A stretch of 64,000 nucleotides of DNA from Quercus robur (lineage: Eukaryota; Streptophyta; Magnoliopsida; Fagales; Fagaceae). The stretch's first letter is position 1. Each line of letters begins with the position of its first letter. Below, piece after piece: positions 4,511-52,249 of the stretch. A model generated the notes under the pieces. The model did not search any database. It had not been told where the DNA came from and was given only the letters and a program-made list of their open reading frames with translations. The stretch is taken from assembly GCF_932294415.1 (NCBI RefSeq), contig NC_065536.1:54532354-54596353 (forward strand), given 5' to 3'. The translations under genes were made by a program, and so were the position numbers.

Positions 4511-4595
4511 AGAAGGGGCTGAAGTAGAAGAGACTGAAGAGTATGAAAGAAAAGTAGACTCATGAAATATAGCATGACTAGAAATGTAAATCCTA

Positions 4596-5021: not shown

Positions 5022-5073
<52 letters not shown>

Positions 5074-5427: not shown

Positions 5428-5475
5428 AGCAACAAAGCCAGCAGAGTTGACAGATGAAGAAGAAAGATTTGATAG

Positions 5476-24343: not shown

Positions 24344-24506
24344 AAAAAAATTGTCAATTGGTCTATTAATTATAGAAATAAGGTAGAGGGTTAAGGTAGT
24401 TTTTGTTTTCTAAAATTGATTTTTACACTTGGTTTTTATTAAAGTTTTTTGGATTATTCATATCTTTGAAAACTTTCATTATTTCATTAAAAATTGATTA
24501 TACGAC

Positions 24507-25777
24507 TGTGAGAGTGCCCTTTTTCGTAACACTCAGGCCCAAGGATCCCGAGCCGAATAGTTGTGGTTTGGTGGACCGGACTTTGATTCACCGCAGCTAA
24601 CGGGCTGTTTAAGAATCAAATGCGCAGGGCATGCTTCCTACAATACATGTAAACTAACAACAAGGATATTTGCATTGAATGACAAATATAAAGAACAACA
24701 AAGTAAATGCAGAGAAACAAAAGCGCAAAGTAACGTTATAAGGATCCTTAGAGCAGTGGAAAGTATTTCATTAAGTTTTCCTTTATCAATGTTACAGTAC
24801 GCTCACTAAGACGTGATACAAGGTTCAAGCAAGCTCAAAAATTACAGACTTAGATGGCTATCTCAGCCTCTAAGACTTGCAAAGTTTGATTCTTTTTGAA
24901 TCCGAGTATGTGCATTAGTGGCTTTTCTGGGATACCGGGAAGTAGTGTTATTAACTTTTCCTGAGTTTTTCTCCTCTTTTCAGAATTTTATCAATAGCTC
25001 TTTCACTCTTCAAGATCCCCCTTTTCTTCGCAACCTTTCTCTCCCTTTTATAGCGATATTCTGGGATCACAGGGGAACCATTGGTTCCCCTGTTTTGTCC
25101 TCTAGTTAACAGGGCATGTACCGTGCCCATCACTTAGCAAGTTCTATTCCCTGTTTTCTCATCCTTTCCTTCCTTTGGTTTCGGTTCCTTTGAAAGTCCA
25201 TGGCCGGCTACCCATTTTGGGATATACTGAGACCACGCCTTTCTCGATCCCACCTTTGGGCAGTTCTCCCTTTTTGCCTTTTTTCCCAGCTGGGCGGAAT
25301 CCCATTCGGCCGGTTTGAAAGTCGTTCGTTGCCATTCCCTTTTTTTATACTTCTCGGTTCTGGTTCCCCGAGGTGCTCCCCACTTGCGTCATGATAGGTC
25401 ACTGATTCTTCCTTCTTTTCTTGCTGGGTCGTTTTGGCGCTTGTGGATTTTCCTCTGTTTCTCATGTTTCTTTTTCTTTTTGGTCCTTTTCTTTTGAACT
25501 GTCTCAATCTTCCTTTGACTGTGCTTATGGGCCTGGGAGGATTCGTGCCTCTTGGTAGTCGCTGATGATCCTGGCTATTTCTTCTTTAATCTCTTGATGT
25601 GGGTTTCTCTTCCTTCTTGATGCTTCTTTTTTTTGGGCTTCAAGCCTCTTAGGCCTGCCGTTTCTTTTCTTTCGTGGTCCCCTTGCACCTACTTCCTTGG
25701 TCTTGGCTTATTTTCTTTTGGGCTTGGCTCACTTCTTTGGGCTTGGGCACTATGATCTCTTATTTTAGACCTCAACA
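24507..25777 (-). repeat. Outer gypsy LTR (3' LTR)
   Basis: 1271 bp, TG..CA ends on both strands, preceded by ACGAC. It ends TAGACCTCAACA on the plus strand. Confidence 0.94.
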
Positions 25778-26267
25778 TTTAGCCCCCCGAGCTCGTGGGT
25801 TGCCTGAAGCCCACGCGTGAGTAATTCAGGGTTTCTTAGATTTTGTAGTATCTTCTTTTAATTACCCCTAAGTTCCCTTCTTTCTTACTCAGGATCCCGG
25901 TCTTTCTTGCTGCTTCTTTAGTCTTTTGATGTGTGTCGTGTTCTCTTATTTTACAACTTCCTCTTTGCACGGGACGTGGCAGTTGAGTATTTGGAGTAAA
26001 ATTCCTTTACCCACCTTTCTCGTTCCCCGTAACTTCCATTAATAACTGCTAATTAATCTCTTCTTCAAAATTAAATTTTTTGGCAACTGGCGCGTCTTTC
26101 CATACACTGTCTTCTCCAACTGCTATTTGCGCCTTTATTGCGGCCGTTTCACATTATCACTTTGCTTCTCTAAGTCTTTCATTCTTGGGTCTCTTTTTTC
26201 TCTCTGTCATTCCCGTCTTCCCTTTATCGCTCTTTCAATCCGCTTTTTCATTATTCGCATTGTTCTA
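25778..26267 (+). promoter_or_regulatory. Outer element: PPT and probable promoter region of antisense gene
   Basis: The first ~14 bases are the element's polypurine tract on the minus strand (TCGGGGGGCTAAA next to the LTR). Downstream is ACGTGGCA (25974..25981), a G-box/C-box-like core conserved in the inner copy, then AT-rich sequence (AATTAAATTTTTTGG) before the ATG at 26268. No cDNA evidence, so the promoter role is an inference from position and conservation. Confidence 0.45.
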
Positions 26268-28464
26268 ATGGCTTCTTCTTCTTCCCGAAAAAGAAGAGAG
26301 CGCACCCCAAGCCCTTCTGAGGGCGAAGGTTCTTCTGGTTCCGCTCCAAGTGATTCTCACGAAGTCACTGAACGTCCGGCCTTTCCTTTATGGGACCCCT
26401 GGTATTCTCCCAGTCCGTTTTTTCCTCAGGTATCTCATGGCGAGGCTCCTCCGTCTCCTCATGCCTGGATGTTTTCTGGCCAGGCGGGTTTTGCTGGTTC
26501 TGCTCAGGTTCCAGACCCTAGAGAGATTTTTGACCTTCAAATTAGACAAGGAATTCGAGTGGCGGTGCCTAACTTTTTTTATTTTGTTCCGGGGAAAATC
26601 CAAGGCTGGCCCATCTGGGTAGACAAGGAACTGTCTGATGTGGAGTTTGTGGGTCGCCTGGAGCGCGCTGGTATCCTAAAAGTAATGGTAATTTCTAGAA
26701 ATCTTGAGGGTTTCAGAGACACCAAGGGGCTCAGGCATCTGGTACGCCGTTGGTGCCCTTCTCTTCATACTTTTTTCTTTTCTGTTGGTGAGTTGACGAT
26801 TACTTTGGAGGATGTGGTTAATAACTTCCTTCTCCCGGTGTTTAGTGATGAGATTCCTTTTGATATTAGCCTTTCTAGAGAGGATCTTGTGGTGGAAGAT
26901 AAGTTGTTTGGCCATTTTGGCGGTCGTACTGCCTGTCCCGGTGGTAAGCCGGCTAGAATGGGGAGATGGGTGATGACCCTTTCCCGTGAGAAGAATAAAG
27001 AAGTTAGGTGGGCTGGTTTCTTGGCATTTTGGCTTAGCGAATTCTTGTTCAGCGAGTTCCCTGGGTACGGGGTTAAGTCTTCCTTTTTTCCATTAGCGAT
27101 CAAGTTGGCTCGAGGTACTCAATATCCTTTAGCCCCTCTGTTTTTGGGCCATGTTTATTCTCAATTAGATCAGCTTCATGGAGATGAGGCCGAGGGTGAT
27201 TCTTGTTATGTGATTACTTCGTCTCTTCACTGTGCTATTCTTCAAATTTTCATGTGGGACCGTTCTGCAGCTACTTTGGCTAAATGTAGGAATTTGAAGT
27301 TTGTAAAAGATAAATTCCAAGGATCCCCCGACATAGTGAAGGGTCTTTGTGGTAATTTGACTGATGCTTTTCTCATTATCTTTCGTTGGATTAGTTTGAA
27401 AGGTGGTGGCCTCAATCTTGTTGAGTTATTCGATCAAACAGGGAATTTTCGTTGGAGATCTCCTCGTGAGTTTGGTCCTGGCTTTGCGTGCAATTCTGTG
27501 TTGTCTTCCTTTTTATCTTCTACAGGTAATACTTTTGATTTGCGTCGTGGTGATGAAGGCAGTCTGGCTTATCTTGCTTGCATTAGCCCCTCTTGGCTTC
27601 TTGTGCCTTCTTTGAGTGGTCCAAGATATACCCATTATTCAGCACACCGGGTGCTTCGACAGTTTGGTTTTGACCAGGACATTCCTCCAATTTTTAAGGA
27701 CATAGTGCTGTCCCTTCCTTCTTTGGATCCTTTCTTGAGGCTGCAGGCCTTTTCTTATTGGTCACGGAGGTGCCCCCAATTTCCAGTGCCTAACTCCCAG
27801 AGAGGAGTTTTTGCTTCTAGCGGCTATACTGGCTACTGGAGAAGAGTACAGAAGTCTTTTGTTGATTATGTTGGCTCTAGTTCAGTTCGGGAAACCCCTA
27901 GTCTTAGTATTGCCTCTGCTTCAACATCCAATAGACGTTTATCCTTGCCTACTGCTGGGATTGTTTCTGCTGCCCTAAGTAGCAAGACTGTGTTTGCAGA
28001 ATGGCATGCCTCCAGGGGAGGTTGGGTGACTTATGCACAAGATTTTCCTGGAACTTGGTTGGGTTGCGGACTAATTATTGGTACTTCCTCCGGAGTACCT
28101 ATTAAGAAGGGTGCAGTGGAGACAATAGGCGCTGCTACCGCTTCAGTTAAAGGCAAGGACGTCAGGCCGGAAAAGACGAAAATAGTTGGTGTTGAGGAAA
28201 GTGCAAAAGGTGTGAAGACTGGTCCTGAGACGAAAAGAAGAAAAACTGGAAGTCACAGACACATTTGGTATCCTAGGAAGACAAGGAGGCCGGGCAACCT
28301 TTGGCTTCAAGGACCCGGAAGAAGACCAAGGTAGAGTCTTCTTTTTCCCAGGTTCCTGTGACTTCTTCAATCCCTGGTTCTTTAGGATCCTCTGATTTTG
28401 TATCCCAGCCCCCCTTAGGACCCTCGGGCGTACTCGTAGTAAGCAAAAGATCTCCAAAAAATCT
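26268..28464 (+). pseudogene. Antisense plant-mobile-domain (PMD) gene, exon 1, outer copy
   Basis: The ATG at 26268 (MASSSSRKRRERTPSPSEGE) is chosen because the inner copy starts identically and the sequence upstream diverges in frame. A Ser/Arg-rich, NLS-like N-terminus is followed by a PMD-like region: GWPIWVDKELSDVEF, GLRHLVRRWCPSLHTF, GELTITLEDVV and LLPVF. PMD proteins (MAIN/MAIL type in plants) act in the nucleus in silencing and development, and PMDs also occur in Ty3/gypsy elements. The frame is open for ~655 codons; a 1-base deletion near 28232 then shifts it, and an in-frame TAG lies close by in the original frame. Exon end 28464 (before GTAGAG) is inferred from the inner copy. Confidence 0.78.
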
Positions 28465-28579
28465 GTAGAGAGAGAGAGAAGGGCAAGACCTCTTTCCTTC
28501 TTCTCTCTTTTTTCATTTGTTCATATTGTTGCAATTACTTCCTCCCTTTTTAGCTGACGAGTGATCCTTTCCTTTGCAG

Positions 28580-29846
28580 TCCAAACGCAAGTCTAACTTC
28601 AAGAAGGGCAAAAGTCAATCGTCTGGTGATGATGTGGCATGGATTTCTCTTGTTTATGCTTCTCCGTTTGCTCTGGTACTGTGTTGTTTGTATCACCCCG
28701 TTGTCTTCACTTATTACTGTTTGCTTTTTCTCTTCTTTTCTCTTTAGGTGGAGGTGTCTCCTCCTATGACCGGCAAAGTTCTGGAAGAAGAAACTGTTAC
28801 AGCCCTTTCTATTGCATTTCCCGTTATGGAGGAGGAGCCCCTTAGTGGTGGTCTGGCTGAGGAGACCGGGCAACCGATGCAGAGTGCCCAAGCTTTTCAG
28901 GATCCCGAAGCTTCTAAGATCCCCACATCTCAAAGTCCTCAGCTTGAGCGCACTCCTAGTCCCATCAGAACCGTGTTTCCTCAAACATTATCAGGTAAAG
29001 AGACTTTGGGAGGCACACCTTTATCCAAACAAACAGGTGAGTCGTATTCCCTTTTAAAATAGTGTTTTCATCTCTATTTCTCTTTGTTCACCTTTTTTTT
29101 TTTTTTGAGTTTCTTCTTTCTTTTCTCCTTTTAGGTCAAGCCAGTGTGAGGTCTTCTCCTAGTGTTGCCTCCCCCTTGGAATCAGAAAACTCAGAAGGTG
29201 AGTGTGAATTGTTTCCACTGTGTTTCCTTTTTCTTTCTTTCTTTCCCTACCCTCTCTTCTTTTTCTTCTTCCATGGCGAAGCCCCCTGCATCTCTTCCTT
29301 CCTTTAGCCGTTTCGCCATAAGTTCTTTACCCTTTCTTCAACTTGCTTTATGCCCTTTCCCAGAACCTTCGAGGAAATCAAAGGAGTAGGAGGAAAAGAC
29401 TCTGCCTCAAGAAACTGGTATGGGTTCGCTCTTCTTTTCTTTTCTTCCTTTTTTTTTTTTTTGTCACTCCTCTCCTTTTCTCTTTTTTTTTTTTAAGACT
29501 AAATCTATTCTTCTTTTCTCTTTTCTTTTGCGAATGTTGATATAGGCCTTAGAGATTCTGAGCCTGCTATTCCTGAGGGAATTGTGAGATCCGTTCAAAT
29601 TGCTGATCTTTAGTCAAAACAAAAGAGTGCAAGTTTTCCAGTTTCTGCAGGCGGGGACACAGTGATGGGGGATGCTCCGGGAGTGGTTGCCCCAGATCTT
29701 GATTCAAGGCTTTCCTCCTTCCTAGCTCGTTTTGATCTTATGGGGTTCAACAGCCTTCCCGCCAACCACTTCTACTCTTTTGGGTCCTCTTATGGCAGCT
29801 TCCTGCGTTTCTTTGTGCCTGTTGAAGGCCTGCCGCTGTTAGAAAG
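28580..29846 (+). pseudogene. Antisense PMD gene, exons 2 to 6a, outer copy
   Basis: Inferred exons: 28580..28636 (SKRKS-x-KKGKSQSS), 28748..29036 (VEVSPPMTGK ... TPSPIRTVFPQTLS), 29135..29197, 29364..29417 and 29546..29846. Sizes and phases match the inner copy (57, 289, 63 and 54 bp). The exon 2 donor is GC instead of GT, exon 5 has a TAG, and exon 6a has a TAG after QIADL. Exon 6 is cut at 29846 by the inner element after PLLES and resumes at 43696. The product is predicted hydrophilic with a helical end. Dead in this copy. Confidence 0.72.
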
Positions 29847-31103
29847 TGTGAGGGTGCCTTTTTCGTGACACTCAGGCCTAAGGATCCCAGGCCTAAATGA
29901 AAAGGAGGATTTAGTGAACCGGGCCTTGACTCACCGCAGCTAACGAGCTGTTTAAGAATCAAGTGGTATACAGAGGATGCTCCTGACAATATAAAAATGA
30001 CAAGCAAGGATATCGAAGAGTGCCAAAAAATTAACAAGGTAAATTCAGAAGGAAAGAAACAGGATTAGCAAAGTGATAAAAAAAAAATAATACTGAGGGG
30101 ATCCTGAGAAATATGAAGCAATGTTTCATTAATACATTGTCTGTTCGATTACAGAAAGCTTACTAGGACGTGATACAAGGTTCAATCAAGCTCAAAAATT
30201 ACAGTCTTGAATGGCTATTTCAGCCTTCAAAACTTGCAAAGTTTGATTCCCGTTGAATCCGAGTATGTGCAATAGTGGCTTTTACAGGATACCGGGAAGC
30301 AATGTTTGTTTTTCCCTTAGTATTTTTCTTCACCACAGATTTTTCTGATAGCTTTTCTAGAAAAATCTCTTCTTTCTTGTATTTTTCTCTTTTTCTCGCT
30401 GCCCCCCTTCTTTACGACCCATCCCCTCCTTTTATAATGGAGTTTTTTGGTCTTCCCGGGGAACCGTTGGTTCCCCTGTTTTATCCTTTTGCAAACAGAG
30501 CTCGTCCTGTTTCCATCATCTCGGTAAGTCCCATTTCCCTTTTTTCTCATTCTTTCCTTCTTTCGGCTCTGATTCTTTTGAAAATTCCTGGTTGGCCATC
30601 TTCTTTGGGATGTGCTGAGGTATGCCCTTCTCGGCATCCCCGTTTCTAGCGTTTTCCACTTTTCCCTTTTCTTTCCCATCTGGGCGGAATCCTGTTCTGC
30701 CATTTTTGAAAGTCATTTGTTATCATCCTTCTTCCCTGTTCTGGTTCCCCGAGGCTTTTTTCTGTCTGTGCCATGAGAGGTCGCTCGTGTTCTTTTTGCT
30801 TTTGTTTCTTGTTTTCTTCTTCTGTCTTTTTCTTTCGAGCTGTCCTAGTCTTCCTTTGTCTTCGTGCCTGAAGGGATCTGTGCCTCTCGATGGTTCCTGA
30901 GGATCCTTGCTTCTTATCCCTTGCCGTGGTTCTTTTTTTTTTGGATACTTTTTTGTCTGGGCTTCAGGATCCTCTGGGCCTTTCTTTTATTCCCTCATGG
31001 GTCTCCTGTATCTACTACTTTGGGCTTAGCTTGAATTTTCCTTTTGGGCTTGACTTATTCTTTTTGGGCTTATTTCACTATGATCCTTTTTCAGACCTCA
31101 ACA
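29847..31103 (-). repeat. Inner gypsy LTR (3' LTR)
   Basis: 1257 bp; starts TGTGAGGGTGCC and ends CAGACCTCAACA. It is a diverged relative of the outer LTR, sharing the GATTCACCGCAGCTAACG-like block near the start and the pyrimidine-rich second half. Confidence 0.94.
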
Positions 31104-31635
31104 TTTAGCCCCCCGAGCTTGTGGGTTGCCTGAAGCCCACGCATGAGTGATTTAGATTTTCTAAGATTTTCGTAGGATCCCCTTCTCCAACTTCTACTAG
31201 GTTCCCTTCCTTTTTACTTGGGATCCCGGCCCTTTTCTGCTGCTTTTGGTCACCTCCTTTTTGCATGTCACGTTCCCTTATAATCATTATTTTTTGCAGT
31301 TTCCTCTTTGCACGGGACGTGGCAGTTGAGTATTTGAGGTAAAACTCCTCTACCCAATTTTCTCGTTTCCCGTTACTTCTCATTAATAACCGCTGATTAA
31401 TCCCTTCTTCAAATTAAAATTTTTTTTGGCAACTGGCGCGTCTTTCCATACACTGTCTTCCCCAACTGCTATTTGCGCCTTTATTGTAGCCGTTTCATCT
31501 TATCATTTTGATTTTCTGAGTCTTTCATTCTTTGGGTTTCTCTTTCTTCTTTTTTTTTTCTTCTTCTCTGTTACTCTGGTCTTTCCCCTTTTCACACTTT
31601 CAATCTCTTCTCTTTTCATTGTACGTGTTGTTCCA
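31104..31635 (+). promoter_or_regulatory. Inner element: PPT and probable promoter region of antisense gene
   Basis: It opens with the polypurine tract complement (TTTAGCCCCCCGAGC). ACGTGGCA at 31317..31324 and the sequence CATTAATAACCGCTGATTAA are shared with the outer copy. The 70-odd codons open upstream of the ATG at 31636 lack an ATG, so they are treated as leader. Confidence 0.45.
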
Positions 31636-33841
31636 ATGGCTTCTTCTTCTTCTCGAAAAAGGAGAGAGCGTACCCCCAGTCCTTCTGAGGGTGAAGGTTC
31701 TTCTGGTACTGCTCCGAGTGATTCTCGTGAGGTTACCGAACGTCCGGCCTTCCCTTTACGGGATCCTTGGTATTCTCTCAGTTTATTTTTTCCTCATGTA
31801 TCTCATGGTGAGGCTCCTCCATCTCCTCATGCTTGGATGTTTTCTGGCCAAGCGGGTTTCGCTGGTTCCGCCCAAGTTCCTGACCCTAGAGAGATTTTTG
31901 ATCTTCAGATTAGACAAGGAATTCGAGAGGTGGTTCCTATCTTCTTTGATTTTGTCCCGGGAAAAATTCGGGGCTGGCCTATCTGGGTAGACAAGGAACT
32001 GTCTGATGTTGAGTTTGTGGGTCGCTTGGAGCGCGCCGGTATCCTGAAGGCAGTGGCTATTTCCAGAAACCTTGAGGGCTTCAGAGACGCCAAAGGGCTC
32101 AGGCATCTGGTACGTCATTGGTGCCCTTCCCTTCATACTTTTTTTTTTTTTTTTTTTTCTGCTGGTGAATTGACGATTACCTTGGAAGATGTGGTTAATA
32201 ACTTCCTCCTCCCGGTATTTGGTGACGAGAGCCCCTTTGATATTAACCTTTCTGGGGAGGATCTCGTGGTGTAAGATAAATTGTTTGGTCATTTTGGTGG
32301 TCGTTCTGCCTCTTCTGGTGGTAAGCCGGCTAGAATGGGGAGATGGGTGATGACCCTCTCTCGTGAGAAAGATAAGGAAGTGAGGTGGGCCGGTTTTCTG
32401 GCTTTTTGGCTTAGTAAGTTTTGTTTAGTGAGTTCCTTGGGTACGGAGTTAAGTCTTCCTTTTTTCCGTTGGCAATCAAGTTGGCTCGAGGTACCCAATA
32501 TCCTTTGGCCCCTCTGTTTTTGGGTCATGTTTACTCTCAATTGGACCAGCTTCATGGAGATGAGACCGAGGGTGATTCTTGTTATGTGATTACCTCATCT
32601 CTTCACTATGCTATCCTTCAGATTTTCATGTGGGGCCGTTCTGCAGCTACTTTGGCCAAGTGCAGGAATTTGAAATTTGTGAAGGACAAATTCCAAGGAT
32701 CCCCAGACATAGTGAAAGGTCTTTGTGGCAATTCTACCGATGCCTTTCCCATCATCTTTCGTTGGAATAACTTGAAAGGTGGTGGCCTCAATCTTGTGGA
32801 GTTATTTGACCAAGCAGGGAGCTTACATTGGAGATCCCCTCGTGAGTTTGGCCCTGGCTTTGCGTGTGATTCTGTAATGTCTTCTTTTTTATCTTCTACA
32901 GGTAATTCCTTTGACTTGCGCCGTGGTGATGAGGGCAGTCTGGCTTATCTTGCCTGCATTAGCCCCTCTTGGCTTCCTGTGCCTTCTTCAAGTGGCCCAA
33001 AATATACTCATTATTCAGCACACCAGGTGCTCCGACAGTTTGGTTTTGATCAGGACATTCCTCCAGTTTTTAAGGACGTGGTGCCGTCTCTTCCTTCTTT
33101 GGATCCTTTCCTGAGGCTGCAGGCCTTTTCTTATTGGTCACGGAGGAGCCCCCAATTTGTAGTGCCTAGCTCCCAGAGAGGAGTCTTTGCTTCTAGTGGC
33201 TATACCAGTTATTGGAGAAGAGTACAGAAGTCTTTTGTTGACTATGTTGGCTCTGGTACAGTTCGGGAAACCCCGGATCTTAGCATTGTTTTTGCTCCGA
33301 CATCCAATAGGCGTTTATCCCTTCCTACTGCTGGGATTGTTTCTGCTGCTGCAAGCAGCAAGACTGGGTTTGCAAAGTGGCATGCCTCCAGGGAAGGTTC
33401 TGTGACTTATGGACAGGATTTTCCTGAGACTTGGCTGGGTTATAGTCTCATCATTGGCACTTCCTCTGGGGTGCCCATCAAGAAAGGTGCAGTGGAGACA
33501 ATAGGTGCTGCCACTGCTCCGAGTAAAGGTAAGGATGTCAGGCCGAAGAAAATGAAAGCTGTTGATGTTGATGAAAGTACAGGGGGTGTGGAGATAGGTT
33601 CTGAGACAAAAAGAAGAAAAATTAGGAAATCTCAAACACACTTGGCATCTCAGGAAGACAAGGATGTCAGGGAACCTTTGGCTTCAAGGACCTGGAAGAA
33701 GACCAAGGTAGAGTCTTCTTTTCCCAGGTTCCTGTGACTACTTCAGTCCATGGTTCTTTAGGATCCTCTGGTTTTGTATCCCAGCCTCCTTTAGGACCTT
33801 TTGGGCGTACTCGTAGTAAGCAAAAGACTTCCAGAGAATCT
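31636..33841 (+). pseudogene. Antisense PMD gene, exon 1, inner copy
   Basis: It starts MASSSSRKRRERTPSPSEGE and carries the PMD-like block (GWPIWVDKELSDVEF, HTFFFFFFFS, GELTITLEDVV). The T run at 32139..32158 adds four Phe codons compared with the outer copy. Two lesions break it: a GAA-to-TAA change at 32272..32274, and a 1-base deletion near 32420. A third shift (one T fewer near 33720) occurs before the exon end. The rest (LARGTQYPLAPLFLGHVYS, SYWSRR, RGVFASSGY) matches the outer copy closely. Exon end at 33841 (TCT followed by GTAGAG) keeps phase 0. Confidence 0.78.
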
Positions 33842-33952
33842 GTAGAGAGAGAGAGAGAAGGGCAAGACCTCTTTCCTTCTTCTCTCTTTTTCATTTGTTC
33901 ACCTTGTTGCACTTATTTCTATTTTGCTGACGAGTGGTGGTTTCCTTTGCAG

Positions 33953-35563
33953 TCCAAACGCAAGTCTGATTACAAGAAGGGCAAAAGCCAATCTTCTGGT
34001 GACGACATGGTATGTGCCCCCCCTTTTTTTTTGTTCTGACATTGTGTTGTTAGCATTACCCCGCTATTTTTACTTGGCACTGCTTTTTCCTCTTCTTATT
34101 CCTTTAGGTGGAGGTATCTCCTCCTATGACCGGCAAGGCTCTGGGAGAGGAAATCGTCACAGCTCTTTCTATTGCTTTTCCTACTGTGGGGGAGGAGCCC
34201 CCTGCTGGTGGTCCAGTTGAGGAAGCCGGGCAACTGATGCAGGGTTCCCAGGATTCTCAGGATCCCAAAGCCTCTAGGATCCCTTCATCCCAAAGTCCCC
34301 ATCTTGAGCGCACTCCTAGTCCCATCAGGACTGTGTTTCCTCAAACCTTGTCAGATAAAGGCGTCTTGGGAGACACTTCTTTATCCAAACAAACAGGTGA
34401 GCCTTGTTTCCTTGAAATAGCGTTATATCTCTATTTTCTTTTCCATTTTTTTTTGAGTTCCTCCTTTTCTTTCTCCTTTTAGGTCAAACCAGTGAGAAAT
34501 CCGCTCTCAGTGTTGCTTCTTCTTTAGAATCAGAAAGCTTAGAAGGTGAGTGCGAGCTGCTCCCATTGTGTTTCCTTTTCTTTTCTTTCCTTCCCCTCGC
34601 CCTTCTCTTTTTATTTTTTTATGGCAAAGCCCCCTGCACCTATTCCTTCCTTTAGCCACCTTGCCATTGGTCCTTCACCTTTTCTTCAACTTGCCTTATG
34701 TTCTTTCCCAGAATCCTCAGGGAAGTCAAGGGATCAGGAAGAAGAGGCTCTGCCCCAAGAAGCCGGTACTGGTTTGTCCTTCTTTCTCCCCCTTTTTTTT
34801 TTTTAAGAATAAATCTGTTCTTCCTTTTCCCTTTTTTTTGAATATCGATATAGGTTTTGCAGATTCTGAACCTGTTATCCCTGAAGGAATCGTGAGACCC
34901 GTTCAAATTGCTGACCTTCATCTAGAGCGAAAGGCTGCAAGTCCTCCAGTCTCTGCAAGTGGTGACACAGCGATGGGGGACGCCTCGAGAGTGGCTGCCT
35001 CAGATCTTGATTCAAGGCTTTCCTCCTTCCTGGCTCGCTTTGATCTCTTGGAATTTAACAGTCTTCTTGTCAGCCATTTCCATGTTTTTGGATCTTCTTA
35101 TGGCAGCTTCCTGCGCTTTTCTGTTCCTGTTGAAGGCCTGCCGCTGTTAGAAAGTCTGCTCAAGAGTCACGAGGATTTCACCAGTGGCTTCAGGGGAGGC
35201 GTTTTTCTGGGCAATATTTTGATAGAGTTGCTGTGTGCTGTGCTGGTTTCCCTGAGGAATTCTTCTGTAGATTCTTTGTCTGAAGAAAAACTTTTGGAGT
35301 GGAGAGGGGTGGTCCAAGACCTTCTGGAGGCCAAGTTCAATTTGTCTTTTCTGTTGGATCACTTGCGTTTGTTGGCTCATATGCTGTTTCAGAGGCAATC
35401 ATTCAAGAGTATAAACACCGAGATAGCTGCTGCTAAGGAAGCTTTAGCTCATGCTCACAAGGTTCTACAAGACTTGAAGGTCAAGCGGCAGAGGATCCTT
35501 TCTACTTTGATTGTGCCTGTTATTCCTCTAAATGCCTCCCTGTTGGCTGGCCTCATTCCTTAG
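33953..35563 (+). pseudogene. Antisense PMD gene, exons 2 to 6, inner copy
   Basis: Exons 33953..34009, 34108..34396, 34483..34545, 34712..34765 and 34854..35563. Every boundary has AG before and GT after, and phases (0, 0, 1, 1, 1) join one continuous frame across all five exons to the TAG at 35563, without a stop. Exon 6 encodes DLDSRLSSFLARFDLLEF and a long helical tail with heptad-like leucines (KLLEWRGVVQDLLEAK, HLRLLAHML) and a basic end (LKVKRQRIL). With exon 1 the product would be ~1,100 aa. Exon 1 is broken, so this copy is not expected to give a full protein. The function is unknown. Confidence 0.78.
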
Positions 35564-35855
35564 CTTATTTTAGATTTACTTAAACAATTTGGGGTTGTAT
35601 AAGTTTTTTTTTTTTTGAACATTGCTTTCCTCTTTGTTTCTTTTTTTTTTTTTGTGTTTCAAAACTGCTTCTCATTTCTTAGTATGTGAATCTGCCTTTT
35701 TCTTTGATATATTGCCTTTTCTTTTCTATGACTTTTCTTTTTTCTTTCCTGAGTCCTGGACCATGGTTCCTATAGGCTTCACTGTAAGTTCTAGTCCAGG
35801 TACCCGGTAATCTATTATGCAAGTACTGAACTGGGTACACCGGTATCCTTTCCTA

Positions 35856-35886
<31 letters not shown>

Positions 35887-36322
35887 CTTTGAGATACGAT
35901 CCCAGTTCATGAACTTTGACAGGTTACCCCCTTTTGCCAAGTGCTAGGCTAGGTATCTTGGATACTTTACTTTTATCTGTGATCCTAGAACTATGCACTT
36001 GGAACTGTCTGTGGGATATCTGAAATTATCTGTGAGGTGGATCCTGGGCCATATGTAAAAGGGTATTACATACCCTTTTTTTTTCTCTCTTTTTTTTTTG
36101 ACTCAGGTATCCCTCCTTAAATCTATCCAAACTTGGTCTTTGCAGTATTTAAAGAAAGACTTAAATGTTGAAGAAACAGGAACTTCATAAAAAAATGGTC
36201 ATTTTTAAGGAACAAAGGAAAAATCATTTAGTGCAGTATTGACCACAAAGTGTCAATCTATCATATGTTCCTGAACAAAAGCATTTTAGACCAAAATTCA
36301 TGATAAAGGCTGAAATAAAAAG

Positions 36323-36368
<46 letters not shown>

Positions 36369-36422
36369 TAGCAGATAGTGAAGCTGGTAAAAGGATCCTG
36401 AGGTACCGGGATCCCCTCGTCC
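35564..36422. other. Inner element: tail-to-tail spacer between antisense gene and pol
   Basis: T-rich runs, (AT)n at 35856..35871 and an A run at about 36327..36366. It should hold the 3' ends of both transcription units. No ORF supported. The outer counterpart is 44105..44957. Confidence 0.55.
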
Positions 36423-38348: not shown

Positions 38349-38369
38349 CCCGGTTAAGTATGCCTCATA

Positions 38370-40093: not shown

Positions 40094-40147
40094 GCAGCTT
40101 GGTGGTCCGGAACCTTCCTACACAATGCATTCGGGTCCCGCGCACCT

Positions 40148-42373: not shown

Positions 42374-42412
42374 ACTCTGTGAAGGGATTACTTCTTCCTT
42401 CTTCTTTGCCCA

Positions 42413-42430
42413 GTCCTTAGTGAAGTCGCC
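42413..42430 (-). other. PBS of inner element (mutated)
   Basis: TGGCGACTTCACTAAGGA follows the 5' LTR after four bases; it differs from the outer PBS at three positions (TGGCGACTCCACTGGGGA). Confidence 0.75.
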
Positions 42431-42434
42431 AAAA

Positions 42435-43690
42435 TGTGAGGGTGCCTTTTTCGTGACACTCAGGCCCAAGGATCCCAGGCCTAAATGAAAAGGAGGATTT
42501 GGTGAACCGGGCCTTGACTCACCGTAGCTAACGAGCTGTTTAAGAATCAAGTGGTATACAGAGGATGCTCCTGACAATATAAAAATGACAAGCAAGGATA
42601 TCGAAGAGTGCCAAAAAATTAACAAGGTAAATTCAGAAGGAAAGAAACAAGATTAGCAAAGTGATAAAAAAAAAAAATGCTGAGGGGATCCTAAGAAATA
42701 TGAAGCAATGTTTCATTAATACATTGTCTATTCGATTACAGAAAGCTCACTAGGACGTGATACAAGGTTCAATCAAGCTCAAAAATTACAGTCTTGAATG
42801 GCTATTTCAGCCTTCAAAACTTGCAAAGTTTGATTCCCGTTGAATCCGAGTATGTGCAATAGTGGCTTTTACAAGATACCGGGAAGCAATGTTTGTTTTT
42901 CCCTTAGTATTTTTCTTCACCACAGATTTTTCTGATAGCTTTTCTAGAAAAATCTCTTCTTTCTTGTATTTTTCTCTTTTTCTCACTGCCCCCCTTCTTT
43001 ACGACCCATCCCCTCCTTTTATAATGGAGTTTTTTGGTCTTCCCGGGGAACCGTTGGTTCCCCTGTTTTATCCTTTTGCAAACAGAGCTCATCCTGTTTC
43101 CATCATCTCGGTAAGTCCCATTTCCATTTTTTCTCATTCTTTCCTTCTTTCGGCTTTGATTCTTTTGAAAGTTCCTAGTTGGCCATCTTCTTTGGGATGT
43201 ACTGAGGTATGCCCTTCTCGACATCCCCGTTTCTGGCGTTTTCCACTTTTCCCTTTTCTTTCCCATCTGGGCGGAATCCTGTTCTGCCATTTTTGAAAGT
43301 CATTTGTTATCATCCTTCTTCCCTGTTCTGGTTCCCCGAGACTTTTTTCTATCTGTGCCATGAAAGGTCTCTCGCGTTCTTTTTGCTTTTGTTTCTTGTT
43401 TTCTTCTTCTGTCTTTTTCTTTCGAGCTGTCCTAGTCTTCCTTTGTCTTCGTGCCTGAAGGGATCTACGCCTCTCGATGGTTCCTGAGGATCCTTGCTTC
43501 TTATCCCTTGTCGTGGTTCTTTTTTTTTTTGGATACTTCTTTGTTTGGGCTTCAGGATCCTCTGGGCCTTTCTTTTATTCCCTCATGGGTCTCCTGTATC
43601 TACTACTTTTGGCTTAGCTTGAATTTTCCTTTTGGGCTTGACTTATTCTTTTTGGGCTTATTTCACTATGATCCTTTTCAGACCTCAACA
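42435..43690 (-). repeat. Inner gypsy LTR (5' LTR)
   Basis: 1256 bp, matching 29847..31103 base by base apart from scattered changes and homopolymer length. Confidence 0.94.
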
Positions 43691-43695
43691 AAAAG

Positions 43696-44104
43696 TTTGC
43701 TCAAGAGTCACGGAGATTTCACCAGTGGTTTTAGGGGAGGCATTTTTCTGGGTAATATTTTAATGAAGTTGCTATGTGCTGTGCTGGTTTCGTTGAGGGA
43801 TTCTTCTGTGGACTCTTTATTTGAAGAAAAGCTTTTGGAATGGAGAGGTGTGGTCCAAGACCTTCTAGAGGCCAAGTTCAATTTGTCTTTCTTGCTAGAT
43901 CATTTGCGCCTATTGGCCAGCATGCTGTTTCAGAGGCAAACCTCCAGGAGCATAGATGCTAAGATTGCTGTTGCTAAGGAAACTTTGGCTCATGCTCACA
44001 AGGCTTTGCAAGATTTGAAGGTCAAACGGCAGAGGATTCTTTCTTCTTCAACTGTGCCTGTCATTCCTCCAGATGGCTCCTTGTTGGCCGGCCTCATTCC
44101 TTAG
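43696..44104 (+). pseudogene. Antisense PMD gene, exon 6b, outer copy
   Basis: Resumes the outer exon 6 after the nested element: SLLKSHGDFTSGFRGG to GSLLAGLIP and a TAG at 44102..44104, homologous to 35147..35563 of the inner copy. It shows the helical segments (KLLEWRGVVQDLLEAK, HLRLLASMLF) without a stop. Confidence 0.82.
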
Positions 44105-44957: not shown

Positions 44958-47090
44958 TTATGCATAGTATTGTTTCAGCCATTTTCCGTTTATGGATTCT
45001 GTCAGGACTGTTCCATCTTCCTTTGTAAGGTAGTAATACCCACTTTCATAGGCTGCCCTAATGATGTAGGGTCCTTCTCATTTTAGGGTGAACTTGGAGG
45101 GTCCTAGTAGGTTCCTCCTTATGTGCTCCGCCATCCTTAGTACCAATTGCCCTTCAGTGAACATCCTTGGGCGTACTGCTTGTGCATATGCTCTAGTCAT
45201 TCTTTGCTGGTACCTTTGGCTTCTTTTTTTGGCTAACTCTCTTTCTTCTTCTACCCCTTCCAGATCTGCCAGCCTTCTCTCATTGTTTGCGTCCTCATTT
45301 TCTTCTTGGCTTTCTTCAAGGACTACCCTTGGTGTAGGAATAACTAATTCCACGGGGCTGATAGCTTTTGTTCCATAGACTAGGGAAAATGACGAGAATC
45401 CTGTGCCTGTCTTTACAGAGCTCCTACATGCCCAAAGTACATCTGCCAAATGATCACTCAATTTCCCTCCATATTCATGCTTCATCTTCTTAAGGATCTT
45501 CAACATCACCCTATTGGTGGCCTCAGCTTGGCCTTTTCCTTGTGGATAGTATGGGGTAGACCTCCCATGTTTGATGTGATATGCCTCAGTTAACCCTTTC
45601 ATGTCTTTGTTTATGAACGGGGTCCCGTTGTTAATGATCAATTTTAGGGGGATCCCGAACCTTGTAATGATGTGGTCTCGAATAAAGTTTGCTACGGCTG
45701 CTCTAGTGGCCTTTTTCAAGGGGATGGCCTCTACCCATTTTGTAAAGTACTCGGTGGCTACCAAGATCCATATGTAACCGTTGGATGGAGGGTTTATAGG
45801 CCCTATGAGATCGAGCCCCCAAGTGTGAAATGGCCATGGTGTCGTCATATCCTGTAGAACATTTGGGTGAGTGTGAATTGCATCTCTCAGGACTTGGCAG
45901 GCGTGGCATGTTTTGGCTAGCTCCTCAGAGTCCCTTTTCATTGTTGGCCAGTAGTATCCCAACAACAATAATTACTTGTAGAGCCTTCTTTTTCCCGAGT
46001 GACTCCTACAATCACTGGAATGAACTTCCCTAACCACTTCTCTAACGTCTTTTGGCCCCAGGCACCTTAAGGGGTCCCCACTGTATCCCCTTTTGAATAA
46101 GATACCATTCTGCAGGAAATACCTGTCTGCAAGTTTCTTGAGCTGGTGGGCTAGTGTCCTGTCGGTTGGTAGGATCCCTTGAGCCAGGTATTCTATGAAT
46201 GGAACTCGCCAATCTTCTGCAACAAACACAGCATAGCTTTCTTCCTTATTTATCGTCAGCCGACACTTTTGACATTTTTTCTATATAGTTGCTGCCTCCT
46301 TGTTCATATTTGGCCAGTAATACCCCATGCGTTGCATCCTTCTATATAGGCTGATCTTTTCTGCAATTCCACAAGCTTAGGTATGTAATTCTTCTAGCTT
46401 CCGTTTTCCTTCCTTCTCGTCAATACATCTGGACAAGATTCCACCTGGCAGCCTTCTATACAATTCTCCTTCTATCTGAGTGTAATCCTTTAGTTCTTTG
46501 ATGTTCCCTCCGGGTCCTGCCTTTTTCATCTTTTCTTTGACTTCGCTCCTCCAATCCCACTGTTTGGACTCTCCGGGGTACATCCCTTGGAGGATCCTTA
46601 CAATAGAATGTTCCTGCCTTCCTATTTTTATCAGCGTGTCCCTTCCCTGGAATGGTATTTGGGATCCCAAAGTGGCGAGTGCATCAGCAAACCTATTTTC
46701 ACTTCTTTGAGTGTACTCTATGCTAAAGGTCTGGAATTCCAGCTCCAGCCTTTGTGCCCAAGTTCTGTAGGCTGCTAAACTTTTTTCCCGTAACGCAAAG
46801 TCTCCTTTTACTTGGGAAACCACAAGATTGGAGTCTCCCAATACTCTCATATACCTTACTCCTATACTGAGTGCTATAGTTAGCCCGATTAAGTATGTCT
46901 CATATTCAGCTGCGTTTTTAGAGCACGAGAAACCAAGCTTGAAAGACAAGGGTATGGTGTCCCCATTCTCACAGCTTAGTACGATTCCTACCCCATTTAA
47001 AGTTGTTGTAGCTGACCCGTTGAATCTCATGATCCATTTCTTTCCTGGGATCTCTGTTACTGCCACTTCACTAGGGATTTCTTCACTCAT
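44958..47090 (-). pseudogene. Second RNase H and integrase, outer copy
   Basis: Second RNase H is complete in 47090..46377: KKWIMRFNGSATTTLNGVG, AAEYETYLIGLTIAL, VLGDSNLVVSQVKGDF, RSENRFADALATLG. The zinc region follows with stops after EELHT (46377) and near 46280; 46229..45972 covers the linker and start of the second H2C2 motif (VHSSDCRSHSGKRRLYK, then a stop). The core in 45968..45078 keeps GLDLIGP and GQAEATNR, but the middle Asp is changed: LIINNGTPF instead of LISDNGTPF. A stop (TGA or TAA type) lies after SKFTLK (45078) and the end KWLKQYYA is at 44958. Not active. Confidence 0.9.
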
Positions 47091-47228
47091 TGGAACTTCC
47101 TCCTTTCATAGGAACTGAGCCAGCAGATCTGCTATGGCTTGGCTTTTGACAACTTTGGGAGTCTTGATGCCTATGTCGTATTGAGAGAGCAAGACTAGCT
47201 ATTGTGCTATTCTTCTCGTGAGAAGGGG

Positions 47229-48635
47229 CTAGTGTAGGAGTGCCTTTATAGGGTGGGACTTGGTTACCAAAAGGATTTGGTGAGCTGAGAAGTACCTTTT
47301 TAACCTCTGGGACGCGTAGATGATTACTAGGCAGGCTTTCTCTATTCTGGGGTACCTGGTCTCGGTGTCCTTGAGTGTCCTGCTTACGTAATAAACAGGC
47401 TGTTCATTCCCTTGGTCATCTTCTTGTGCCAATAAAGCTCCTATTGCCTGGGAATTTGATGCCAAGTATAACAACAGAGGTCGCCCACGTACTGGTGCCT
47501 GGAGGGTGGGCAAATGATTCATGATGTACTAAATTCTTTGGAAAGCCTCCTGTTGTTCCGTTCCCCAGATAAATTAAGTTCCCTTTTTCAATAGTTTAGA
47601 TAAACCTATCGTAACTGAGGCCAACCTAGGCACAAATCTCCTAATATAGGAGACCCTTCCTAGGAAACTTTTGAGCTCCCTCACAGTAGTTGGTCTTCTC
47701 ATCGTGGCGATGGCTGTGGCTTTGACTGGATCTACACTTATGCCTCTGCTATGTACTAGGAACCCAAGGAACTTTCTAGCAGACACCCCAAAGGCACATT
47801 TCATGGGGTTCATGCGTAGTTTGTACTTCCTGCATGTTTCAAAAACTTGCTCAAGTACTTGAAAGTGTCCTGACCTAGTCTTTGATTTGACCACAATGTC
47901 ATCTACATAATCTTCCATCTCCTCATGTATCATGTCATGGAAAATGGCTATCATGGTTCGCTGGTATATAGCCCCCGCATTTTTGAGGCCAAAGGGCATT
48001 ACAGTGTAGTAAAAATTCCCAATTGGGGTTCTGAATGTCATTTTCTCTGCGTCTTTGGCAGCCATGAGGATTTGGTTGTACCCACTGTACCCATCCATAA
48101 ATGAGAACATTGAGCTTCCTACTGCAGAATCTACAAGGAGGTCGATATTGGGTAGGGGAACTCATCTTTTGGGCACGCCTTATTTAGGTTGCGGAAGTCC
48201 ACACAGCAACGGATCTAACCATTTTTCTTCTTCACAGGTACAATGTTGGAGAGCCATTTTGAGTGTTGGATAGGTTTGATAAAACCAGCTGTTAGTAGTT
48301 TCTTGACTTCCTGAACTATCGGAGCTTCTACCTCGATGTGAAAGACCCTAGCCGGCTGAACTACTGGCCTCATTCCTGGGTCCACATTAAGAGAATGAAC
48401 TACCAATCCCGGGTCTAAACCGGGCATTTCATCATAGGTCCACGCGAACACGTCTTTGTATTTTTGAAGTAAAGCTACCAATTGTTTCCTTTCTTATGTC
48501 ATCAGCTGACTGCTAATAAAGACAGGCTTCCGGGATCCCGGCTTGGTTCCCAAATTTATTTCCTTTAATTCTTCCTCAGGCTGAATTTGGGCTTTCTTGA
48601 CTGGTTCTTCTGGGATTTCTCCTTGGGCCATCATG
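47229..48635 (-). pseudogene. Reverse transcriptase and RNase H, outer copy
   Basis: It begins at MMAQGEIPEEP and follows the inner copy. RT motifs: TAGFIKPIQHSKWL, CVDFRNLNKACPKDEF, FSFMDGYSGYNQI, EEMEDYVDDIVVKSK. RNase H: PVYYVSRTLKDTETRYPRIE, YASQRLKRYFSAHQILLVT. Lesions include TAA after SQLMT (~48484), TAG after KKNG (~48214), a 1-base deletion near 48156, a stop after LKKGT (~47574) and stops around 47525 and 47229. Unlike the inner copy, IFHDMIHEEMEDY is intact here, which shows that the inner copy has the 7-base deletion. Confidence 0.88.
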
Positions 48636-48688
48636 TAATTTGGTGGTCTGGGACCTTTCTGCATGATGCATTCAGTTCCCGCGCACCT

Positions 48689-50912
48689 TTATAAGCGATA
48701 GATTAACCTCCCTCTGGGTTCACGCACCACCACGCATTCCCGGGATCCTGAAGAGCTGAGCTCCCTTTTTTGCCTTTTTCTTTCCAAAAGGTTTCTCAGG
48801 TCACAGGTGCCCCTTCCTCCTTCTTCTTCTTCTAGGATAGATACCCCTGGAGTACCTAGGGTCGGGCTCTCATCATCTGGCTCTAACTCATCATAAAACA
48901 TTGCTTCTGCAAAATTTACTTCTCCCTGGCTGAAAGGGTTACGGTTGGCAGGGATCCTCACGGGCCTCCCATTCAGTCTCCCTTTAATGCATTGATGAAA
49001 CGTAGATGGAATAAGGCGGTGTTTATGGTGCCATGGGCGTCCCAACAACACATGGTAAGATACTTCTGCATTAATCACGTGAAACCTTGTCAGGGCTACT
49101 ATCGGCCCAACCCTTAAGGCTAGCTGTACGTATCCTTCTGTTGATTCCACCGACCCCCCAAATCCTGTTATCTCCATGGGAGCCCCCAGGATCTTTCTGT
49201 CAACCAGGCCTACAGCTTCCAGGGTACTCAAGGCTATGAGGTTGAGTGATGCCCCTGTGTCCACCAGTGCTCTTCTGATTTGGATGCCATTTATAGCGGT
49301 CATTAGATAAAGGGGCCTTCGGTGGTTCGGGTGTTCAATCTCCATGTCTTCGTTAGTGAAGGTTATTGCATTGGTTATCTCCAGGAAAGCTCGACTAGCA
49401 TGTGACTCTGCTGTGAAGCATTCCATTCCTGAATCCGCTGTTATGCTCATGAGAGACTCTGTAGCCACCCTTCTTGCTTCTGGTCCAAATCCCAGTTGGT
49501 TGAATAATGACCTGAACTTGGGATTCTTCTGGAGAATCCTGACTGTGCTTGGGTGGAAGGATCCTTTTGATTCTCCTGCTTCTGCCGGGTTCCCATGGAT
49601 TACTATTGCTACCATCCCTTTCCCTTTATGGTTAGGCAAGGGGTTCCTCTGCACTTCTGGCTCCTTCTGAGTGAGTTCCAGGGTTCCTTCCCTTAGCTTT
49701 TTGTGGAAGAGTCTGCGAAGGGTCCAGCAATCCTTGGTGGAATGCTTGACATAGTTATGGATCCTGCAAAACAAAGGGTTCTTCCTTTCTTCCTCAGTTG
49801 GCGGCCTGGACACAGTAAACGGTCTAACAACTCCATCTCTGATCCATTTATCTAAGACATGGTTTAACTCCTCAGCTGTACATGGGATCACCGGTGGTTC
49901 CTCGAACACCTTCCTGTCTAGCCTCTTCCTTTTCTCTCCTACTGAAGCTGTCATAGCTTGGGACACCGGCATCCTTTATGTCCTCATAGTTTGTGCTGTC
50001 CTCCTGGTTCTCTGTAACAGGTCAGCAAAATGAGTGATACATAGATTTTCGAGGTTGAGCCTATAATCAAAAAGCATGTTGGCTATGCAGGTTTCCACGA
50101 ACTCCTTCTCTTCGTGGTCCCCATAGCAATCTAGGGACACATCTTCAAATCTTTTAATGAACTGTACGGGATCCTCTCCAGGTCTCTGCCTCACCATCTG
50201 AAGGTTCTGGAAGTGATCTTGTCCTCACCGAGGTAATATTTGGCACAGAATCTTTCCATCATTTCATCCCAGGTTTTGATAGACCCGGGTCTCAGCGTGG
50301 TGTACCAAGTGTATGCTCTATCCACTAAGGATTTAGCAAACTCCTTTAGACATAGTTCTTTGTCTCCTGCATATGGGCCTATAATGTGAATGAACCTACT
50401 CACATGTTCCACAACACTTCCATTTCTTCCATCGAAATGATGGAACTTTGGGGGTTCGTACCCCTTGGGGTATGGTTTGTCGAGAAGTTCTGGGGGGAAC
50501 GGGGGATCCTGAGAGAATTGCTTACGAATCCCTGAGAGTTTTTCCCTTTCTTGCTCCAAGAGGGCACTGACATCTGCAGTGTTAAGTATTGGGGGTTGGC
50601 TCTCCCTCCCTCTGCTGACCCTCCTTCTGGTTGCGTTCTGTCTTGGTTACCAGCAGGGGGAACATTATCCTTGATTTCTTGTGTCCTGCCTTCTTTAAGA
50701 AGGCAAACTTCTTGCTCCAGATCCTTCAACATTGCTATCATCTGAGCCATAAGGTCTGGTTCCTGCCTTGTGTGCCTTTGTCCCGACACAACCTCTTGCT
50801 CCACCGGGGGTACCTCGCCTCTCTGTCTAGAGGCTACCTCGTTTTCTCCCACAGGCTCGGAGGCCGTAGGTGACACATTAGTTCCTTTGCTATTTCTTTG
50901 TCTTGGAGGCAT
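48689..50912 (-). pseudogene. Gag and aspartic protease, outer copy
   Basis: Start at 50912 (MPPRQRNSKGTNV), behind the PBS. It follows the inner gag in 50912..~50580, shifts by a 1-base deletion near 50577, continues as EQEREKLSGIRKQF, shifts again near 50213, and resumes at MVRQRPGEDPVQF (50197). A TAA at 49973..49975 separates RTAQTMRT from RMPVSQAM. The knuckle-like CRIHNYVKHSTKDCW and protease RRALVDTGASLNL are intact in the long open stretch 49972..48689. The ORF ends RLIYRL with TAA, at the same codon where the inner copy has TGA. Confidence 0.9.
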
Positions 50913-50951
50913 ACTCTGCGAAGGGATTGCTTCTTCCCTCTTCTTTGCCCA

Positions 50952-50969
50952 GTCCCCAGTGGAGTCGCC
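50952..50969 (-). other. PBS of outer element
   Basis: TGGCGACTCCACTGGGGA, four bases behind the 5' LTR. PBSs of this type are known in Tat/Ogre-like elements, where they have been described as tRNA-Arg complements; I recall this and could not check it. Confidence 0.75.
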
Positions 50970-50973
50970 AAAA

Positions 50974-52244
50974 TGTGAGAGTGCCCTTTTTCGTAACACT
51001 CAGGCCCAAGCATCCCGGGCTGAATAGTTGTGGTTTGGTGGACCGGACTTTGATTCACCGCAGCTAACGGGCTGTTTCAGAATCAAATGCATAGGGCATG
51101 CTTCCTACAATACATGTAAACTAACAACAAGGATATTTGCATTGAATGACAAATATAAAGAACAGCAAAGCAAATGCAGAGAAACAAAAGCACAAAGTAA
51201 CGTTATAAGGATCCTTAGAGCAGTGGAAAGTATTTCATTAAGTTTTCCTTTATCAATGTTACAGTACGCTCACTAAGACGTGATACAAGGTTCAAACAAG
51301 CTCAAAAATTATAGACTTAGATGGCTATCTCAACCTCTAAGACTTGCAAAGTTTGATTCTTTTTGAATCCGAGTATGTGCATTAGTGGCTTTTCTGGGAT
51401 ACTGGGAAGTAGTGTTATTAACTTTTCTTGAGTTTTTCTCCTCTTTTCAGAATTTTATCAATAGCACTTTCACTCTTCAAAATCCCCCTTTTCTTCGCAA
51501 CCTTTCTCTCCCTTTTATAGCGATATTCTGGGATCACAGGGGAACCATTGGTTCCCCTGTTTTATCCTCTGGTTAACAGGGCATGTACCGTGCCCATCAC
51601 TTAGCAGGTTCTATTCTCTGTTTTCTCATCCTTTCCTTCCTTTGGTTTCGGTTCCTTTGAAAGTCCATGGCCGGCTACCCATTTTGGGATATACTGAGAC
51701 CACGCCTTTCTCGATCCCACCATTTGGCAGTTCTCCCTTTTTGCCTTTTTTCCTAGCCGGGCGGAATCCCATTCTGCCGGTTTGAAAGTCGTTCATTGCC
51801 ATTCCCTTTTTTTATACTTCTCGGTTCTGGTTCCCCGAGGCGCTCCCCACTTGCGTCATGACAGGTCGCTGATTCTTCCTTCTTTTCTTGCTGGGTCGTT
51901 TTGGCGCTTGTGGATTTTCCTCTGTTTCTCGTGTTTCTTTTTCTTTTTTGTCCTTTTCTTTTTAACTGTCTCAATCTTCCTTTGACTGTGCTTATGCGCC
52001 TGGGAGGATTTGCGCCTCTTGGTAGTCGCTGAGGATCCTGGCTATTTCTTCTTTAATCTCTTGATGTGGGTTTCTCTTCCTTCTTGATGCTTCTTGTTTT
52101 TGGGCATCAAGCCTCTTGGGCCTGCCATTTCTTTTCTTTCGTGGTCCCCTTGCACCTGCTTCCTTGGTCTTGGCTTATTTTCTTTTGGGCTTGGCTCACT
52201 TCTTTGGGCTTGGGCATTGTGATCTCTTATTTTAGACCTCAACA
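50974..52244 (-). repeat. Outer gypsy LTR (5' LTR)
   Basis: 1271 bp, same length as the partner at 24507, followed by ACGAC. Confidence 0.94.
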
Positions 52245-52249
52245 ACGAC

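Follow-up and report, generated by a model that had tools for sequence, protein, structure and literature searches.

A survey of long terminal repeat (LTR) elements ranked the plant mobile domain (PMD) first by frequency among their atypical domains; 57% of Ogre elements were reported to have it (Neumann 2019), and it is known from gypsy PMD-A clades (Ikeda 2017), the latter report leaving open the direction between host and gypsy PMDs while preferring domestication. Antisense genes near the 3′ LTR are likewise known (Vicient and Casacuberta 2020; Vicient 2025), and counter-silencing by PMDs borne on transposable elements (TEs) was proposed earlier in a review (Nicolau 2021) and, for MULE-borne PMDs, by Ikeda 2017. 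Plant LTR retrotransposons are described in a December 2025 review as generally intron-less, the exceptions being Ogre and EVADE, in which introns serve to produce subgenomic RNAs. Here the analysis concerned a 64,000-nucleotide stretch of the Quercus robur genome (NC_065536.1, positions 54,532,354 to 54,596,353; hereafter the window), in which two nested Tat-type gypsy elements, with the inner element (29847–43690) inserted in an exon of the outer one (24507–52244), each carry a PMD gene of six exons on the plus strand, antisense to gag-pol and between integrase and 3′ LTR.

The original prediction of such a gene in both elements was supported by the profile search that it had proposed as a check, PF10536 giving 110.4 bits for the outer and 48.2 bits for the inner copy (curated cut-off 34.9); the closest named protein relatives are from Quercus, Lithocarpus and Fagus. 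In the inner element, exon 1 (31636–33841, with the donor GT at 33842) encodes the PMD and is followed by exon 2 (33953–34009; 57 bp, phase 0/0, coding for the Lys/Arg-rich SKRKSDYKKGK), exon 3 (34108–34396; 289 bp), exon 4 (34483–34545; 63 bp), exon 5 (34712–34771; 60 bp) and exon 6 (34854–35563; 710 bp). The latter encodes a C-terminal domain that is weakly PEARLI-4-like (21.5 bits with PF05278, under the cut-off of 29.9) and shows a long helix at its end in the structure model. The corresponding outer exons are located at 26268–28465 (PMD, 3′ end approximate), 28580–28636 (followed by a GC rather than GT donor at 28637), 28748–29036, 29135–29197 and 29364–29423 (alignment ending at 29420, 3′ end placed by extension), with exon 6 split by the inner element into 29546–29846 and 43691–44104. 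The predicted sizes of 57, 289 and 63 bp were recovered, whereas the 54 bp given for exon 5 probably needs to be corrected: GT at the donor then chosen (34766) occurs in 12 of 30 aligned copies and at the same position in the outer element, while GT six bases downstream, at 34772, is kept in 29 of 30 copies and in the outer element, which makes 60 bp the most likely length of exon 5. The reading frame is unaffected by this choice, and inner exons 2–6 were confirmed to join without a stop before the final one. Both window copies are damaged, with frame breaks in inner exon 1, a stop within outer exon 5 and the interruption of outer exon 6. Between the 3′ LTR and the antisense ATG, the inner (31104–31635) and outer (25778–26267) leaders on the plus strand are candidates for promoter and 5′ untranslated region; in a two-copy alignment, blocks of the inner leader, one of them with GACGTGGCAGTTGAGTATTTG, were also kept in the outer leader, and no TATAWA was found in the inner leader.

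The source genome (786 Mb) was searched with the DNA of the gene including its introns, and 40 matches were scored (including the inner copy, at 89–100% identity), each of which formed one unbroken stretch spanning the whole or part of the intron-bearing query. In a search with exon 6, all of the 150 matches scored from 767 candidates (the window's own included) were full length or one residue short. Both results bear out the earlier claim that the gene had passed through retrotransposition and indicate many rounds of it. An alignment of 30 copies including the inner one was then examined, the first part of exon 1 lying outside the fetched loci. Exons 2–6 measured 57, 289, 63, 60 and 710 bp simultaneously in 23 copies, the other seven deviating at one or more exons. 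Distinct gap intervals numbered 96–398 per kb in introns and 159 per kb in the spacer past the stop codon, compared with 7–18 in exons 2–6 and 29 in sampled exon 1; much of the intron excess lay in homopolymers, but it persisted outside them (49–255 vs 0–25 per kb in exons). Splice donors of introns 1–5 were GT in 30, 30, 30, 30 and 29 copies and acceptors were AG in 28, 30, 30, 30 and 26 copies, a conservation that alone is a modest signal, as 55% of intron columns were also invariant. The sampled spliced frame was open in three copies, one of which had lost the last acceptor.

Selection was assessed by binning two-allele sites according to the number of copies with the rarer base, the expected ratio being taken from the mutation spectrum of the introns and part of the spacer. 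The ratio of nonsynonymous to synonymous changes (omega) was 1.07 for single-copy changes (516 nonsynonymous including stops, 208 synonymous), 0.75 for changes in two to three copies and 0.28 for changes in at least four copies (70 nonsynonymous, 108 synonymous), the difference between the first and last class being highly significant (Fisher p 1e-14). At four or more copies, the shifted plus-strand frames gave 1.50 and 1.70, the introns 0.82–0.94 and the integrase of the same copies 0.33, the latter from 16 changes only; one minus-strand frame reached 0.36, which is due to its sharing third positions with the antisense gene. Exon 3 showed the weakest constraint (0.60). Single-copy changes, most of which arose after insertion, are neutral owing to the decay of dead copies, and shared changes are constrained. 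A dN/dS test on the antisense frame, as originally suggested, therefore needs to be split by sharing. Between the inner and outer elements, the ratio of nonsynonymous to synonymous divergence (Ka/Ks) of the antisense gene was 0.17 over 980 codons with Ks 0.48 (exons 4 and 5 excluded), compared with 1.08 and 1.05 in shifted frames, 0.07 (Ks 0.48) for the integrase and 0.11 (Ks 0.43) for gag-protease. The constraint on the antisense gene is therefore not much below that on the integrase, and its Ks, equal to that of the integrase and near that of gag-protease, indicates that the gene is as old in these elements as the integrase. The selection tests exclude a chance origin, the sequence statistics show both the exon structure and purifying selection on the joined frame, and the gene is almost certainly a resident, intron-bearing gene that is spliced and under selection.

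A related gene was found in a second family. With a Fagus relative as query, 40 loci scored out of 2,251 candidates yielded 39 PMD frames without stops at 37–40% identity, several of them adjoining exon-6 matches, and one divergent element (L054). The latter had the same layout as the window element and shared with it 67% identity in the main piece of reverse transcriptase (RT), 55–57% in integrase, 38% in the PMD and 36% in the C-terminal domain. With splice sites picked by eye, its exons joined in phases 0, 0, 1 and 1, identical to those of the first four introns of the window gene; its exon 2 starts with SKHK, compared with SKRK in the window, and a single stop lies in the last exon of that copy. 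From this second family, 40 candidates were scored and four copies read, in all of which exons 2, 3 and 4 were 63, 310 and 180 bp long, while intron 2 ranged from 107 to 390 bp between neighbouring exons of constant or nearly constant length; a one-base difference was seen in a single copy for the last exon, and likewise for the end part of exon 1. The shared structure indicates that the intron-bearing gene is older than the split of the two families. In all four copies the donor of intron 4 was GC, perhaps marking a real GC-AG intron, and GC is also the donor of outer exon 2 in the window.

The PMD protein has a predicted fold like that of the DNA-binding construct of VANC21 (PDB 9lnj). Sequence similarity to VANC21 was not detected, and when 25 PMD proteins were scanned against Pfam, with E values of up to 10 admitted, DUF1985, the sequence marker of VANC proteins, was not among the matches.

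The elements further carry a dispersed word. GGATCC was the top 6-mer by z in both elements (15.8 inner, 10.8 outer) and, among six-base palindromes, stood far ahead of all others, with 30 and 20 sites compared with 9 and 7 for the next. Specifically, the inner element contains 34 GGATCC sites (29882, 30099, 30901, 30967, 31175, 31221, 31761, 32697, 33101, 33761, 34260, 34277, 35493, 36039, 36393, 36409, 37115, 37229, 37537, 37637, 38057, 38127, 39193, 39992, 40411, 40648, 41018, 41628, 41964, 41986, 42470, 42686, 43488 and 43555), of which 30 remain when one LTR is counted, and the outer element 22, of which 20 remain; 26 and 17 of these, respectively, read RGGATCCY, in 12.6 kb each. RGGATCCY was absent from 36 kb of flank (with 4 GGATCC) and from 68 kb of other PMD loci (with 9 GGATCC). 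The 29 other copies contained 233 GGATCC against 26 expected from base composition, a count that ranked first among 6-mers by z but 18th by ratio, with ACGACGT above GGATCC among 7-mers. The sites were also conserved in place: 20 of the 22 outer sites had GGATCC at the aligned inner position, compared with 38% for composition-matched words (p 3e-7), and in the opposite direction 20 of 32 sites were kept, compared with 39% for control words (p 0.007), while eight modal sites across the 30 copies were intact in 90% vs 80% for control words (p 0.012). In codon-preserving shuffles of seven gag-pol open reading frame (ORF) pieces, the excess remained (13 observed vs 4.2 inner, 7 vs 2.2 outer), with the word falling in all three codon frames of the inner pieces and two of the outer. 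In LTR, leader and spacer together, 9 sites were found against 0.6 in the inner element and 5 against 0.5 in the outer, the outer count lying within the maximum (6) of 1000 random runs. GGATCC is much scarcer in the second family, which is rich in YCTGCCR instead. Its four copies contained 3, 2, 1 and 4 GGATCC in 9.9, 4.4, 4.4 and 4.4 kb, of which 1, 1, 0 and 2 were RGGATCCY. YCTGCCR occurred in these copies at 3.1, 3.4, 4.6 and 4.8 per kb, compared with 0.63–0.85 per kb in the window family, and words containing CTGCC ranked highest among 7-mers in three of them. A differing PMD is accompanied by a differing word, as has been reported for VANC proteins and the sequences that they target.

We interpret the gene as an accessory gene resident in a Tat-clade gypsy family with Ogre/Retand-type layout, and propose that a plus-strand transcript starting in the leader by the 3′ LTR would be spliced to yield a protein combining the PMD and the C-terminal domain. 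The introns would persist since the replicating RNA is the opposite strand, in which the plus-strand GT..AG reads CT..AC and would be unreadable to the splicing machinery. With less certainty, the PMD may act as a VANC21-like DNA-binding domain recognizing a word dispersed over its own element (RGGATCCY in the window family, YCTGCCR in the second), and the bound protein might shield the element from silencing or otherwise mark it for expression. Sequence-specific binding of the protein to its own element is probable in our judgement; anti-silencing is, in view of VANC21, the most attractive outcome and a plausible one, with the balance tipping slightly the other way. Taken together, the observations incline us, by a little, towards an antisense-encoded VANC-like factor that binds the DNA of its own element. 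More tentatively, the multi-exon antisense gene of Tat gypsy elements might encode a VANC-like anti-silencing factor co-evolving with the dispersed word, with PMD and VANC forming one old superfamily of transposon DNA-readers of which MAIN and MAIL1 would be the domesticated branch, a proposal that we would bet against.

The fold and the words would also be evidence for a DNA-binding accessory factor with a different role, comparable to the nuclear GENE23 protein of maize Grande; it might activate transcription from the LTR, direct integration or bring the pre-integration complex into the nucleus. In Grande, a nuclear protein that is encoded in antisense and has a promoter of its own has been described and accessory roles proposed for it (Vicient and Casacuberta 2020), and an accessory factor of this kind is a serious if unlikely candidate here; the word is spread over gag-pol and the antisense gene besides the LTR, beyond what an LTR activator would need. 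A decoy of host PMD silencers, competing with MAIN/MAIL1-type proteins for PP7L-type phosphatases and weakening silencing without binding its own word, would accord with the interaction of MAIN, MAIL1 and PP7L and their requirement for TE silencing (Nicolau 2020), and with the counter-silencing suggested for TE-borne PMDs (Nicolau 2021), but does not predict family-specific dispersed words conserved in place, and we regard it as rather improbable. The antisense RNA alone might matter, through double-stranded RNA or small interfering RNA control with the open frames incidental, given that, according to a review, silencing can be supplied by antisense transcription of LTR elements and that tea PMD transcripts yield phasiRNAs; it is strongly disfavoured, with very little probability left to it, by the Ka/Ks of the joined frame against values of about 1 in shifted frames, by the constraint on shared changes and by the rarity of exon indels. 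Finally, a captured host gene fragment, decaying and functionless, which the broken window copies and the neutral single-copy changes might suggest and which holds for those two dead copies only, is refuted for the family by the constrained shared changes, the equal gene structure in two families and the Ks matching that of the integrase, and its probability is close to nil. The original wording of a ‘captured’ silencing-type protein is likewise unsupported, an equal Ks and a divergent family with the same gene pointing instead to an old resident.

The elements carrying this putative VANC-like factor have both their gag-pol regions on the minus strand. The outer element has LTRs (3′ LTR, 24507–25777; 5′ LTR, 50974–52244) of 96.6% identity and a perfect 5-bp target-site duplication, ACGAC (24502–24506 and 52245–52249). 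The inner element, of a diverged subfamily, starts with TGTGAG at 29847 and has LTRs (3′ LTR, 29847–31103; 5′ LTR, 42435–43690) of 97.4% identity; its target duplication is GAAAG (29842–29846) and AAAAG (43691–43695), with four of five bases equal, and the BLAST match starts 4 bases before the element edge because target bases match. LTR-pair distances K of 0.035 (outer) and 0.024 (inner) indicate that the inner element is younger, in line with the nesting. The inner gag-pol pieces (36423–42343) comprise gag (41666–42343), protease (40148–41644), RT (38964–40117), RNase H (RH; 38646–38963) and a second RNase H (RVT_3) with integrase (INT; 36423–38369), and those of the outer element (45078–50646) gag (50191–50646), protease (48689–49975), RT (47574–48161), RH (47229–47528), RVT_3 (46377–47105) and INT (45078–45971). 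An additional RNase H (aRH) besides the RT-linked one defines the Tat clade, and its placement between RH and INT the Ogre/Retand subclade (Neumann 2019). Pfam profiles found both RT_RNaseH and RVT_3 in the two elements, in the order RT, RH, RVT_3, INT, which is the layout of Ogre or Retand and does not separate one from the other. Transposase_28 (PF04195), which marks the antisense TRP28 of Retand, was absent from the Pfam matches of the PMD and exon-6 proteins. Ogre is distinguished by an intron separating the gag-protease ORF from that of RT and by a primer site for tRNA-Arg; TGGCGACTCCACTGGGGAC, adjoining the 5′ LTR, is a presumptive match to this tRNA.

Elsewhere in the window, remains of a copia-type element (2975–6147, minus strand; RVT_2, Pol_BBD) and of a transposon with Transposase_21 and DUF4216 (13101–15476, plus strand), which we take to be of CACTA type, were observed, together with a long imperfect, self-complementary inverted repeat (23948–24341; ~80% over 400 bp) immediately left of the outer element, a 2-oxoglutarate dioxygenase-type gene fragment (DIOX_N; 57156–57719, minus strand) and a gag fragment with, behind it, an open frame of 330 aa that has no Pfam match (61096–62613, plus strand). 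A separate cluster of PMD loci lies at G000 C37:13.20–13.42 Mb (L001–L005 and L007), in most of which a single open frame holds the complete domain; the six fetched are without RGGATCCY.

PMD in gypsy elements being already known, what is new relative to the literature searched, whose coverage of key older work was limited, is the intron-bearing antisense gene, the fold link and the words: the searched texts contained no introns in such an antisense gene, cross-exon selection, PMD-VANC fold link or family-specific dispersed words. The PMD-bearing Ogre/Tat elements are alike in being gypsy elements with a double RNase H whose extra ORF includes a PMD, and the window PMD is located in the interval between pol and 3′ LTR; the accessible text of the reports on them (Neumann 2019; Ikeda 2017) describes an ORF or domain and no multi-intron antisense gene, joined-exon selection or dispersed word. 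The aORF-3R of Grande, RIRE2, Retand and PvRetro13 and the TRP28 antisense ORFs (aORFs) of Retand resemble the window gene in being antisense between pol and 3′ LTR, conserved in many copies and suspected to encode a nuclear regulator, but have TRP28 rather than PMD as their domain and are described as ORFs (at least 600 bp, shorter for TRP28, in the survey of Vicient 2025). VANC21 of the Arabidopsis DNA transposon VANDAL21 (Hosaka 2017; PDB 9lnj) is alike in predicted fold, in being encoded by the element and in a repeated short word that differs between families; it differs in belonging to a DNA transposon, to DUF1985 proteins and in having its words mostly in non-coding tandem repeats, whereas here the carrier is a retrotransposon and the words are also in coding DNA. 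MAIN and MAIL1, PMD-C host proteins, have the PMD in common and are encoded by host genes that silence TEs. HBZ of HTLV-1, which has a spliced form, is also the product of an antisense gene by a retroelement 3′ LTR and offers an analogy only, the protein and host being unrelated. Against the generally intron-less plant LTR retrotransposons, the selected antisense gene has five introns here and four in its counterpart in the second family, which belongs to the same genome. What the PMD and the antisense ORFs do in Tat elements is treated as an open question in the literature searched, and the predicted VANC21 fold match and the two family words turn both into simple binding tests. If the proposal is true, a gene of a retrotransposon would become linked with the anti-silencer of a DNA transposon and with silencing proteins of the host.

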